Notes under the pieces: model-generated
What the model saw: only the letters and a program-made list of their open reading frames with translations
Told to the model about the DNA's origin: nothing
Databases searched by the model: none
Translations under genes and position numbers: made by a program
Shown: positions 10,958 through 28,796 of the stretch, piece after piece
How positions within the stretch are numbered: the stretch's first letter is position 1
Layout of the letters: the number at the start of each line of letters is the position of its first letter
Source of the DNA: Synergistaceae bacterium
Lineage (GTDB): Bacteria; Synergistota; Synergistia; Synergistales; Aminobacteriaceae
NCBI GenBank assembly: GCA_017470785.1
Contig: JAFUXM010000094.1
Coordinates: forward strand, 1-32,492
Direction: 5' to 3'
DNA length: 32,492 bases

Positions 10958-12076
10958 TTAATTTTTAATTTTTGCTGCGAGAGCATCGATATCTTCAGGC
11001 GATAAACCGGTGCATTGCATAATATCGCTAATCGCAAGACCGATTTCAAGCATTCTTTGAGCCGCATTAGAATACGCCTCACTGCGGCCACGGGCTTCGC
11101 CGATTGATATGCCCTCACTGCGACCACGGGCTTCGCCGATTGATATGCCCTCACTGCGGCCACGGGCTTCGCCGATTGATATACCCTCGGCGCGGCCAAT
11201 GTTTATGCCCTCACTGCGGCCAATATTTATGCCTTCACTGCGCCCACGGGCTTCGCCGATTGATATGCCTTCGGCGCGGCCTATCTCTATTCCCTCGTCC
11301 TTAAAAGCTTTTTCAATCCAAGATTCATACGGCATTCTCTTTTCCTCCAGTTCTCTATACTCGTTAATATATTTAACGCGCAAAGCCTCGCTTTTAAGAT
11401 TAATAATCCGCTCAAGAAATAATAACAGCGCTCTGCGATCCTTACGCTCCCAGCCCTTAGCGTTCAGAAGCGTCCAAAGCTCACGCAGATAAATAAATTT
11501 CTGCAGCTCGTCCTTGCGGCATCGTTTGGCCTTGCGCGACGCGTAAATCGCTAAGTCAAACGGATTATCGCTCGCCCTTAATGCATCTTCGTCAAGCGCT
11601 TCAATGTCAAGGCAGTTATAGCTGTATTTTATAGACGTGCCGAAGTGCGAGAACTCGTAGAAATTTTTGTTCTCTTTAGGCCTCGGCTCGGTTAAAATTG
11701 CCAGCGCTGCAGGATGTCTGCCGTGATGCGCAAACAGCAAGCAATAATACCTGTGCATTCGGGACGGCAAGTCCTCACCGCCTGGGCCTTGAATCTCAAT
11801 GTGAAGCAGCACCCACTCGTCGCCGCCGCTCTTTAACGCAATTTTCATTAATGCGTCAACAAATCTGGGCGGATTATGCTCGTCCTGCTGAGCGTCAAAG
11901 CTCTGCATAATGTCGCGCAGCTCTTTATCAAGAAATTCCGGCTCAACGCTCAAGTCCGCAGCATAATACAAGTCCGGCATCACACTGAGCAGCATCTCCC
12001 GCCAAAACCTCGCAATTAAATCCTTCCAGAAACCGTCAAAGTCAAATCGTTCTTCCCGTTCGTTTAGCTCTTCCAT
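10958..12076 (-). CDS. Rpn/PD-(D/E)XK nuclease-family putative transposase with C-terminal repeats
   Basis: A 372-residue protein of the Rpn (recombination-promoting nuclease, YhgA-like) group. FWREMLLSVMPDLYYAADLS leads to a PD-(D/E)XK-type core: RFVDALMKIALK then EWVLLHIEIQGPGG, whose acidic residues plus EIQ fit the catalytic set. HRYYCLLFAHHGRHPAALAILTEP and RKDELQKFIYLRELW are typical of the family. The C-terminus has tandem GRSEGISIGEAR-type units (about residues 262-334), then AAQRMLEIGLAISDIMQCTG, a common family ending. Such proteins nick DNA and promote recA-independent recombination. No transposon ends were found around it. No convincing Shine-Dalgarno precedes the ATG. Confidence 0.85.
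   Translation of the reverse strand: MEELNEREERFDFDGFWKDLIARFWREMLLSVMPDLYYAADLSVEPEFLDKELRDIMQSFDAQQDEHNPPRFVDALMKIALKSGGDEWVLLHIEIQGPGGEDLPSRMHRYYCLLFAHHGRHPAALAILTEPRPKENKNFYEFSHFGTSIKYSYNCLDIEALDEDALRASDNPFDLAIYASRKAKRCRKDELQKFIYLRELWTLLNAKGWERKDRRALLLFLERIINLKSEALRVKYINEYRELEEKRMPYESWIEKAFKDEGIEIGRAEGISIGEARGRSEGINIGRSEGINIGRAEGISIGEARGRSEGISIGEARGRSEGISIGEARGRSEAYSNAAQRMLEIGLAISDIMQCTGLSPEDIDALAAKIKN
11077..11292 (-). repeat. Coding minisatellite of 36- and 24-bp units inside the Rpn-like gene
   Basis: Seven consecutive units on the plus strand: 36 bp at 11077, 11113 and 11149, 24 bp at 11185 and 11209, 36 bp at 11233, 24 bp at 11269. Each starts C(C/T)TC(A/G)CTGCG or a close variant. 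All lengths are multiples of 12, so copy-number change keeps the reading frame and only alters the GRSEGISIGEAR / GRSEGINI repeat tract. Confidence 0.95.
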
Positions 12077-22621: not shown

Positions 22622-22650
22622 TTGACAAATTTTTGAGAGATGAATATAAT
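22622..22650 (+). promoter_or_regulatory. Perfect-consensus sigma-70 promoter of the small-RNA gene
   Basis: TTGACA (22622-22627), exactly 17 nt, TATAAT (22645-22650). Both hexamers are full consensus. The expected start site is about 22657. No open reading frame with a ribosome site follows. Confidence 0.9.
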
Positions 22651-24384: not shown

Positions 24385-24547
24385 GCTTGAAACTTGCTGT
24401 ATAAAACGCTAACGCCCCTTTCAAAATTAATTTATTTAAAAAATTTTAAAAAACATCCGAACAAAATATTATGTTAAAATTTTTGCGAAATGTTTTTAAT
24501 GATTAAGAAATCTTTTAAAAATTTTTAAAATTTACGTAAGAAAGGGG

Positions 24548-24576
24548 TTGACAGCGTTGCAATTTCGCCGCATAAT
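24548..24576 (+). promoter_or_regulatory. Sigma-70-type promoter upstream of the flagellin gene
   Basis: TTGACA (24548-24553), 17-nt spacer, CATAAT (24571-24576). The -35 is perfect. The predicted start near 24583 falls inside the heptanucleotide satellite. The 160 bp before it (24385-24547) are A/T-rich with nothing recognisable. Confidence 0.75.
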
Positions 24577-24651
24577 AGAGCAGAGAGCAGAGAGCAGAGA
24601 GCAGAGAGCAGAGAGCAGAGAGCAGAGAGCAGAGAGCAGAGAGCAGAGAGC
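24577..24651 (+). repeat. Heptanucleotide satellite (AGAGCAG)10.7 in the flagellin leader
   Basis: Ten perfect AGAGCAG units (24577-24646) and a partial AGAGC, beginning on the base after the -10 hexamer. Perfect short tandem repeats of this length are prone to slippage. The following 24652-24780 is T-rich, with no gene. Confidence 0.98.
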
Positions 24652-24789
24652 TAATTAGTGTCCAAACTTCTTCCCTGTCAATTTTTATTGTTTCCCCTTT
24701 TATAAATTTTATAGTTTTTATAATTTTATCTTCTACTTTATCTTCTATTTTATTTTTATTTTCTATCAGTAAAAGAAAGAAAAAATTTG

Positions 24790-24830
24790 CCCGTCGAACG
24801 GCTATGGCTTGCCGTGCGCCGGGATTTTTT
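24790..24830 (+). terminator. Terminator-like hairpin in the flagellin leader (possible attenuator)
   Basis: CCCG (24790-24793) pairs with CGGG (24820-24823), and ACGGC (24798-24802) with GCCGT (24811-24815), separated by an internal loop TCGA/GCGC and followed by ATTTTTT. It sits 43 nt before the flagellin ATG with no room for another promoter in between, so transcripts from 24583 must pass it. Confidence 0.65.
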
Positions 24831-24873
24831 AATTATTAGGGAACATAAAAAGGCAAGGAGGTCTTTTTAAATC

Positions 24874-27800
24874 ATGACGATGATCATCAATACCAATTCT
24901 GCGGCGCGTGAGCGGTACAATGTTCTGTACCGGAACAAGCGGTCGCTCGATGATACGATCGGTGAGCTTTCGAGCGGGCTGCGCATTAAGGAAGCTGCGG
25001 ACGACTCGGCTGGCTTATCGATCAGTGAGAAGATGCGGGCGCAAATTTACGGGTATGATCAGGCAGCTGAAAACTCACAGGACGGGTTAAGTATGCTGCA
25101 GACCGCAGAGGGCGGCTTAGGCGAAATTCAGTCGATAATGCAGCGAATGCGCGATCTTGCAGTGCAGGGCGCAAACGACACATTGACGGCGCTTGACCGG
25201 AGCTATGTTCAGTTTGAGTTCGGCGAGCTGCGCAACGAGATTAATCACATCGCCGAGACAGCCGAGTTTAACGGCAAGAAATTATTGAACGGCGACGCAG
25301 GCGCTTTATGGTCAAGCAGCGATCTGGAGACTAAGGCGATTATCAACGGCGGAATTTACGGCTACGAGGGCAATTACGAGATCAGCGTTAAGGCTTCGGT
25401 TGGAGACGCGGAAATTCAGAAGACGAATATTTTTACGCTGAGACAGGACACAGTAATGCCGTGGTACGTTACGGTGCATACGGGCAACGGCATAGCTGCG
25501 CCGAGCTCACAGACGCCCCCGTCGGTCAACACTAAAGGAACGTACACGGTTTCGGCTCAGACATTCGCATTAACTTTAACTGAGGACTCAACAGGCGTTC
25601 ATAACTCGACGGCAAGCGTCACTGCCAACACTTCAAGCTCAGGCAATTTCACTGTTACTCCAGATGCTGATTTAGACGTGAACGCGGATATAGTTTTCAC
25701 TGTCGACAGCGTGAGTGACACAGGCGACGTAACGTTCTCTTATTCCGGCTCGACAATGGACAAGAGCGGAGTTGTGAGCGAAGGCGCGTTAAGCGGATCA
25801 ATGACAATTACAAGCGGCACGGCGCAGAGCTTGACTATCGGCACTAAAAGCGTAAACTTTGATTTCACCGGAAGTTTTAACGAGGGCGACAAGATAGCCG
25901 TGAACTTAGCCGCGCAGGCAGTTAAAGCCGATGATGACATAGTGTTCACGGTGAAGGGCGATTTAGACGCCGGCTCAATGGGAGATCATCACTATACGCT
26001 TGCTAAATCTGCCGGCTCGAACACAACGCTTGATTTCAATATAGCCCTTAAGGACAAGGACGGCGAACTTGAACAAGGTACAGTACATTTAACGACCGAT
26101 TCAAGTTATGCTGCAAATATAAAGGATACTACGCTTGCGGTGTTTCAGCGCGGCGGAACTATGCCGGAGTCAAGCAATACACTTCAGACAGTGCAAAATC
26201 AGTCGGTGCTTCAAACAGAAATCCAAAATTTGCCAGCCGGAGCGTCTGCAACAGTTAAAGCTACAGTAGACAGAACTTCTTCTAACCAAGCAAACGAGTA
26301 TAAGAATTACGGACGCTGGTATCTACTTCAGAGAAAACCAGCAAACGGAACGCTTGAAAATCTTCTTATCTCAAACTCAGAGGGCGTAGATATTTTAGCA
26401 ACAAAACAAGACCGCACTGTAATACGCACTGAAGCAGATCAAAGCTATGGCATACTTCAGGGTTTTGATGGGACAGCATCCATGAACGTTAGCGGAATTT
26501 TGAAGATGACTATAGGCGGTGCTACGGGCGGTACTACACTTGACGATGCCAATGTATGGTTATCGCGTGTTGAATTTTGGGGAACACATACCAATGGCGA
26601 AGCCGTACATGTTGATCAAACCTTGACTGCAAGTACAGGCCGTATTCCAAGTACATCCGGTGATGCAAATGCAAGCAGGACGCGTGGTTTAAATTATGAT
26701 TCTACAACTGGAACAGCCTGTCGTATAGGAAATGTTAGGTTATTTGATATAGACGCTCTTAACTCAGCCATAAATAACGGTAAATTACAGGCGGGAGATG
26801 AATTTTATATTCAGGTTGTAGCCCGCAGCGGAACAGCAGGCACTTCTCATACTGGAGTAACATTAAGCCTTGATGGGGACGACGGCAGCGGAGGCGATAT
26901 TTTTACATATACGCCGCGCGTTGTATTAGACGAAGACGTTATGAAAAACACGTCAAGTGCAAGCGTAGCGTATGTACCTTATACTACTACAGGTTCATTA
27001 GACCTCAGTACTTTTAACTGGGACAACGCGTTAAGCGTGAATTTAAAAATACTCGGCACAAGCACGGATGGTTCTATTACAGACGCAGATATATCGGCAT
27101 TGGACGGCGCGACGTTAGTTGATTATGACTTCGGCACGAACGCAGTAAATCAGGTCGACAGAGTAGATGCAGCTGCAGGAGACACAGCTATAAAGACGAG
27201 CCGCATCCGCGATTTAAAACAATTCTATGACGCTAACGATAAATTTTTGCTTGACGATCCCAAAACTATAACTATAACGCAGGGCGACGGCAGGAACGCT
27301 AAGGTTACTTTATACGCTGACGACACGCTCGAGGATGTCGAGACGAAATTAAACGCCGCCATAGCCAACGAACTTGGCCAAGCAAAATATGTAAAATCAG
27401 GCGACGAAGAAAATTTTGTAAATTTCGTGACAGAGAGCAACGCTAAAGATAATAAAAATACGCCGGAGTCCGTAGCAGGCACAATGGTAATTCACTCGGC
27501 AATAGCGGGACAGGCCGGACGTTTAAGTTTTTCAGGCGACGAGGACGTATTAAATGCGTTCGGCTTAAATACTTTGCAGCAAGCTTCAGAGACGACTTAC
27601 ACGGTCAATATTTCCAATGCTCACACCGGCAGCGCAGTCTTAACTGATGCGAAATTAACCGGCAATCGTTTAATCGGCGCGATAACGCCGAACGTTGACA
27701 TAGAGTTTGACCGCATGGCCGGAACTAAGGCAAATTGGGATGATAAAGAACGCGATTTTAATTACGAGACTAAAGAATATAATACAATTCTGCACCTTGC

Positions 27801-28197
27801 TGACAACACAACGACTCTGCAAATCGGCTCAAACGAGGGCGACATTATGCAGCTTAACATCGGCAGCATGAAGACCGACGCATTAAATCTCGATGCGGCC
27901 ACGCTGGCTACGCGTGAGTCGTCCAAACGCGCTATCACAATGCTCGATACTGCGATAGACAAAGTTGCAATGCAGCGGGCGAAAATCGGCGCAATGGAGA
28001 GCCGCATTGAGCATCACATCGCAAGCATAACAACATCTCACGAGAATTTAGCTAATGCCGAGAGCCGGATACGCGACGCGGACATGGCCAAGGCCTCAGT
28101 GAAATTTGCAAAACTGCAAATCATGATGCAAGCTAATATAAGCATCAACGCTCAAGCCAATCAAGCAGCTCAAAGCGTTTTGAACCTGATGAGATAA
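24874..28197 (+). CDS. fliC: Giant flagellin with very large variable central region
   Basis: A 1107-residue flagellar filament protein; ordinary flagellins have 250-600. Residues 1-140 are conserved D0/D1 (IGELSSGLRIKEAADDSAGL, ISEKMRAQIYGYDQAAENSQ, DGLSMLQTAEGGLGEIQSIM). About 1020-1107 is the matching C-terminal D1/D0 (ITMLDTAIDKVAMQRAKIGA, NLANAESRIRDADMAKA, ending NLMR). The interior of roughly 880 residues would project from the filament; around 805-935 it has flagellin hook-IN-like sequence (ITITQGDGRNAKVTLYADDT, then VLNAFGLNT and YTVNISNAHTGSAVLTDAKL). There is no signal peptide, as expected for type III export. AAGGAGG is 12 nt before the ATG at 24874. DNA from about 26180 to 26930 has different codon habits (more CAA, CTT, AGA). 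Confidence 0.95.
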   Translation: MTMIINTNSAARERYNVLYRNKRSLDDTIGELSSGLRIKEAADDSAGLSISEKMRAQIYGYDQAAENSQDGLSMLQTAEGGLGEIQSIMQRMRDLAVQGANDTLTALDRSYVQFEFGELRNEINHIAETAEFNGKKLLNGDAGALWSSSDLETKAIINGGIYGYEGNYEISVKASVGDAEIQKTNIFTLRQDTVMPWYVTVHTGNGIAAPSSQTPPSVNTKGTYTVSAQTFALTLTEDSTGVHNSTASVTANTSSSGNFTVTPDADLDVNADIVFTVDSVSDTGDVTFSYSGSTMDKSGVVSEGALSGSMTITSGTAQSLTIGTKSVNFDFTGSFNEGDKIAVNLAAQAVKADDDIVFTVKGDLDAGSMGDHHYTLAKSAGSNTTLDFNIALKDKDGELEQGTVHLTTDSSYAANIKDTTLAVFQRGGTMPESSNTLQTVQNQSVLQTEIQNLPAGASATVKATVDRTSSNQANEYKNYGRWYLLQRKPANGTLENLLISNSEGVDILATKQDRTVIRTEADQSYGILQGFDGTASMNVSGILKMTIGGATGGTTLDDANVWLSRVEFWGTHTNGEAVHVDQTLTASTGRIPSTSGDANASRTRGLNYDSTTGTACRIGNVRLFDIDALNSAINNGKLQAGDEFYIQVVARSGTAGTSHTGVTLSLDGDDGSGGDIFTYTPRVVLDEDVMKNTSSASVAYVPYTTTGSLDLSTFNWDNALSVNLKILGTSTDGSITDADISALDGATLVDYDFGTNAVNQVDRVDAAAGDTAIKTSRIRDLKQFYDANDKFLLDDPKTITITQGDGRNAKVTLYADDTLEDVETKLNAAIANELGQAKYVKSGDEENFVNFVTESNAKDNKNTPESVAGTMVIHSAIAGQAGRLSFSGDEDVLNAFGLNTLQQASETTYTVNISNAHTGSAVLTDAKLTGNRLIGAITPNVDIEFDRMAGTKANWDDKERDFNYETKEYNTILHLADNTTTLQIGSNEGDIMQLNIGSMKTDALNLDAATLATRESSKRAITMLDTAIDKVAMQRAKIGAMESRIEHHIASITTSHENLANAESRIRDADMAKASVKFAKLQIMMQANISINAQANQAAQSVLNLMR

Positions 28198-28259: not shown

Positions 28260-28796
28260 TCAAAGCACTTGAAAAATACGAAGGATTGCCTCATCAAGAT
28301 TTTTAGAAAATTTTAATAAATCGCATACTTTTTTCTTGAGCCAACTCCAGAAATGTTCTATTGGATTCAGTTCTAGACTATATGGCGGCAAAAAAATTAT
28401 TTTTACGTTATATTCTTCAGCAAATTCATGAAGACGTTTCTTGCGATGAAATGAAGCATTATCCATTACTATTACTGTCCCTTGCGCTAACCTAGGAATA
28501 AGATGTTTTTCAAACCATACCTCAAAAAACTGAGAGTGCATAATTCCTTTGTATTTAAGCGGCGCAATAATCTTTTTACCAATTTGAGCCGCAACTATAT
28601 TCGTCCTCTCGAATTTTTTGCCTCTAATTTTACTGATGACAGCTTTTCCCTTCGGCGCACGCGCATATTTACGGTAAAAAAATTCATCTATTCCCGTTTC
28701 GTCGACATAAACTATATTTTCAGCAGGAACGTTTTTTATTTGAGCAAGATAATCTTTTACTTTTTGAGCGTCCTGCTCATAGTATAGTAAAAGCAC
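28260..28796 (-). pseudogene. IS630-family transposase, 3' half only
   Basis: A 178-codon open frame with the DDE catalytic core of IS630 transposases. First Asp32 is in IVYVDETGID, second Asp112 in VIVMDNASFHRKK, and Glu147 in LELNPIEHFWSWLKK. The N-terminal helix-turn-helix half (about 130 residues) that binds the element ends is absent. The first five residues (from a GTG at 28796) are encoded by the terminal repeat of the nested MITE, so the native frame begins near YEQDAQKVKDYLAQI. All three catalytic residues survive, so truncation is recent. It should not transpose alone. Confidence 0.9.

Follow-up and report, generated by a model that had tools for sequence, protein, structure and literature searches.

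Repeats that act as promoter spacers, such as those of Haemophilus hif, adjoin promoter boxes. In Streptococcus gallolyticus, pilus transcription is switched by changes in the number of GCAGA repeats within a leader ORF of pil1, since these changes shift the position of the ribosome stop with respect to a terminator (Danne et al. 2014, PMC3894217); the pil1 terminator has a folding energy of -18.7 kcal/mol and the start site lies ~400 nt upstream (PMC3894217). In NeuO of E. coli K1 the repeat is an AAGACTC heptamer carried in the coding sequence itself (PMC13001214).

We analyzed a contig of 32,492 nucleotides from a Synergistaceae bacterium (JAFUXM010000094.1; hereafter, the window) in which a heptamer array lies in the leader of a flagellin gene. 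The leader contains the following features.

24437..24463, forward strand: candidate sigma-28 promoter P1, TAAA-N15-TCCGAACA, a consensus match
24541..24547, forward strand: Shine-Dalgarno-like AAAGGGG of the leader ORF, 9 nt before TTG 24557
24548..24576, forward strand: sigma-70-like promoter P2, TTGACA (24548-24553), N17, CATAAT (24571-24576), 11/12 matches, abutting the array
24557..24658, forward strand: leader ORF as read at the assembled copy number, 33 aa from a TTG start to a TAG just past the array
24577..24651, forward strand: (AGAGCAG)10.7 heptamer array, period 7, 100% matches, score 150
24579..24839, forward strand: alternative frame, open through the array, hairpin and T6, entered after -1 or +2 units
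24790..24830, forward strand: terminator-like hairpin with T6, -18.9 kcal/mol, z -2.24
24855..24861, forward strand: flagellin Shine-Dalgarno AAGGAGG
24874..28197, forward strand: giant flagellin, 1107 aa (Flagellin_N 7.4e-40, Flagellin_C 7.4e-23)

A sequence-only reading of this DNA had singled out the P2 boxes next to the array, the (AGAGCAG)10.7 repeat, an interrupted GC hairpin with T6, and AAGGAGG before a giant flagellin. Each is present at the positions listed, the array being perfect, the hairpin a predicted terminator and the flagellin start ATG 24874.

The leader compared with known repeat switches

Like pil1/pil3 of S. gallolyticus, the window carries a short tandem repeat, with a 7-bp unit that is not a multiple of 3, inside a leader ORF; the stop is early in one phase and falls in or beyond the predicted terminator hairpin in another, and a gene for a surface appendage lies downstream. 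The P1 box would also put the likely transcription start ~400 nt before the flagellin ATG, as in pil1. The window differs from pil1 in its repeat unit (7 bp versus 5 bp), bacterial family and product (flagellin versus pilus), in having a sigma-28 box as likely promoter together with a sigma-70-like promoter abutting the array, and in being predicted ON in one phase of three versus two of three. It would share with NeuO the switching of a reading frame by heptamer slippage, but its array sits in a separate leader ORF, outside the flagellin coding sequence. As in promoter-spacer repeats the array adjoins promoter boxes; it begins after CATAAT, however, and not between the -35 and -10 boxes, so that changes in copy number leave box spacing unchanged.

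Reading frames and the predicted terminator

The array is the only AGAGCAG array in its own 2.57-Mb assembly. The predicted translation from TTG 24557 is open through the array, after which the three frames stop at +0, +4 and +185 nt (24654, 24658 and 24839), with the T-run at +173. Only the third frame, which spans 61 codons and ends at TAG 24839, crosses the hairpin; any frame was open that far in 4.8% of dinucleotide shuffles. Entry from TTG 24557 at the assembled copy number leads to the stop at 24658, while the loss of one unit or the gain of two leads into the long frame. The assembled copy number is thus predicted to be an OFF phase, with one unit fewer or two more giving ON.

The hairpin itself occupies 24790-24823 and is followed by an A and then T6 (24825-24830); 4 of 200 shuffles folded as well. 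A simple terminator scan missed it because the stem is interrupted. A known RNA leader was dismissed, since Rfam gave no match to the window leader at E<=1. Neither a convincing relative among 83 genomes nor a Pfam match was found for the stretch that follows the array, and we therefore dismissed a gene remnant there as improbable.

We consider it probable, with considerable reservation, that the leader is a phase-variable attenuator of the flagellin gene in which array copy number selects the frame and one frame of three crosses the terminator. Transcription would begin upstream, probably at the sigma-28 box, and ribosomes would load at AAAGGGG and initiate at TTG 24557. Slippage would alter the AGAGCAG copy number, which by simple arithmetic sets the frame in which a ribosome leaves the array. 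In two phases the ribosome would stop no more than 7 nt past the array, leaving the hairpin, 131-136 nt beyond that stop, free to form, and transcription would end (OFF). In the third phase, translation would continue across hairpin and T-run as far as TAG 24839 and so block the terminator, and polymerase would reach the flagellin gene (ON). We infer translation, termination, slippage and the effect on flagellin in the window from the anatomy of the leader. The attenuator predicts that flagellin is ON at 9.7 or 12.7 units and OFF at 10.7 or 11.7.

Several observations count against the attenuator. The leader start is a TTG with only a fair Shine-Dalgarno sequence, the evidence for the sigma-28 box is a consensus match, and the absence of a conserved relative for the tail after the array makes its translation in the window a prediction only. 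If the attenuator reading holds, slippage-controlled leader peptides coupled to attenuation, known from streptococcal pili, would extend to flagellin, and the mechanism would recur before many surface genes in a little-studied bacterial family.

Related arrays in the genus and family

Relatives were sought as AGAGCNN arrays, with the reversed pattern as a control. Such arrays were found in 15 of 43 genus genomes and 19 of 83 family genomes, and almost none were found with the control. In all, ~39 arrays were found in the family, with units of 7 bp (37) or 8 bp (2); since the unit is never a multiple of 3, these arrays point to reading-frame switching.

In the genus, the arrays are found at the 5' ends of genes that encode glycosyltransferases (families 1, 2, 8 and DUF4422), acyltransferase-3, UbiA and MaoC-like proteins. 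A start codon that could be used is absent downstream of the array in most of them, and the frame must therefore be entered through the array. Of 20 family arrays, 14 had a Shine-Dalgarno sequence with an open start codon no more than 50 nt upstream (background, 14%), and most were out of phase as assembled. These congener arrays are contingency loci of the NeuO kind, those of the acyltransferase genes included, in which copy number sets the frame. Only 2 of ~15 scorable arrays were in the ON phase, fewer than one in three, which counts against the attenuator, although units may be miscounted in short-read assemblies. Contig ends were touched by 12 of the 39 arrays (0.03 expected), an excess consistent with arrays that are long or polymorphic in the populations sampled but one that array length alone could also explain. 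In one region (L109), a second heptamer array encodes repeats of the peptide DSRLTTH at the C-terminus of an acetyltransferase-like ORF.

Counterparts of the window leader occur in sister genera (G072, G071 and G078), where a short leader ORF holds the array and strong hairpins with T-runs separate it from a gene with its own Shine-Dalgarno sequence, for example one for a lipoprotein, a secreted protein or an FkbM-like methyltransferase, as judged by eye from the sequence start. At L279, L291, L293 and L283, a start and the array are followed by two frames that stop early and one or more long frames that cross a hairpin and T-run, with a surface gene downstream; this order recurs in the partial copies L292, L280 and L286, and in two partial copies two frames run through the terminator. 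In G072, none but the long frame stays open across all four copies of the tail, with a modest third-position excess (36, 37, 49); the leader N-termini differ in length among copies yet keep the frame. This arrangement has the element order of the window and, like it, no fused gene.

The comparative evidence thus fits well the proposal, made from the sequence alone, of a phase-variable or attenuated switch for a surface protein. The accompanying suggestion of a cause, in which repeat changes shift the start site or the initially transcribed region, has weaker support than frame switching: homologous arrays lie in translated leader or coding ORFs whose starts are upstream, and their units are 7 or 8 bp.

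Promoters around the array

A sigma-28-like box, TAAA-N15/16-NCCGA, was present upstream of 14 of 14 flagellins checked in the genus, compared with 6% of random 450-nt windows; when the AT-rich region 24385-24547 was shuffled with dinucleotides preserved, 2.9% of the shuffles contained one by chance. The productive promoter is probably the upstream box at 24437-24463. A sigma-28 start within the hairpin had been suggested instead; the letters TAAA-N15-GCCCGTCG are there, but they lack the CCGA core, and with the better box upstream this site is not supported. Elsewhere in the window, a 12/12 sigma-70 consensus promoter (22622-22650) lies upstream of a hexapeptide acetyltransferase gene.

Although a candidate promoter thus lies upstream of the leader ORF, P2 abuts the array, and the role of this sigma-70-like promoter is unexplained by the attenuator. 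P2 could be the working promoter, with the array as initial transcribed region and copy number acting on promoter escape, on the folding of the 5' end or on stability. In 14 of 18 genus loci, no more than 6 nt separate the array from a TTGACA/TATAAT-like pair that is spaced by 16-18 nt and has at least 9/12 box matches (background, 1.2%), and promoter-like boxes also adjoin arrays, on either strand of the unit, in several sister-genus loci. We nevertheless regard a working P2 as unlikely. Start codons often lie inside the abutting promoter and most congener gene bodies have none after the array, so that complete products of the fused genes could not be made from its transcripts, and units of 7 or 8 bp only point to frame switching. 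A P2 transcript in the window would lack the leader start, which if P2 is productive also counts against the attenuator, and would then meet the terminator.

A more speculative and rather doubtful proposal is that the butt-joined boxes are functional in another way, with polymerase binding, opening or sigma-dependent pausing at the array edge driving repeat instability or timing the ribosome for attenuation; the combined promoter-array-leader-terminator cassette would be one not described before. An adjacent promoter as a general property of AGAGCAG arrays was dismissed, as it is mostly missing from those of other bacteria among the matches listed. The best exception among these matches is in Lachnospiraceae MA2020 (L183, 6410-6501), where TTGACG-N17-GATAAT is followed by (AGAGCAG)13.1, a terminator-like hairpin and a gene, and one frame ends inside the hairpin.

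The flagellin gene and its paralogues

The flagellin gene has its own Shine-Dalgarno sequence and ATG, 222 nt past the array. In another reading, the array is what remains of the 5' end of a phase-variable glycan gene after loss of its body, and flagellin is expressed independently from its own start; such arrays do begin glycan genes in congeners. We judge this quite improbable given the lack, among 83 genomes, of convincing relatives of the sequence after the array and the leader arrangement without a fused gene in sister genera. The perfect 10.7-copy array and the preserved leader start also suggest that the array is live.

No orthologous flagellin leader was found in congeners, and the idea of one was dismissed: the closest full-length relative of the giant flagellin is a 39% paralogue in the same genome, which has no array. 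Flagellin leaders in this genome are long, several paralogues carry CsrA-like GGA hairpins, and CsrA is encoded, yet a graded rather than on/off effect of copy number within the leader after transcription, through ribosome access or the binding of CsrA or a small RNA, is very unlikely as the window hairpin has no GGA loop and the array is little structured on folding.

At L055 and L056, four tandem flagellins have leader hairpins with CACGGATG/CACGGAGG loops that resemble CsrA sites. A DDE_3 transposase fragment (28260-28796) adjoins the flagellin gene of the window. Two other repeats were observed in the window: a 439-bp tandem duplication at 219-1116, with two copies 93% identical, and a 36-bp repeat of 3.1 copies at 11077-11188, within the reverse-strand ORF 10958-12076.
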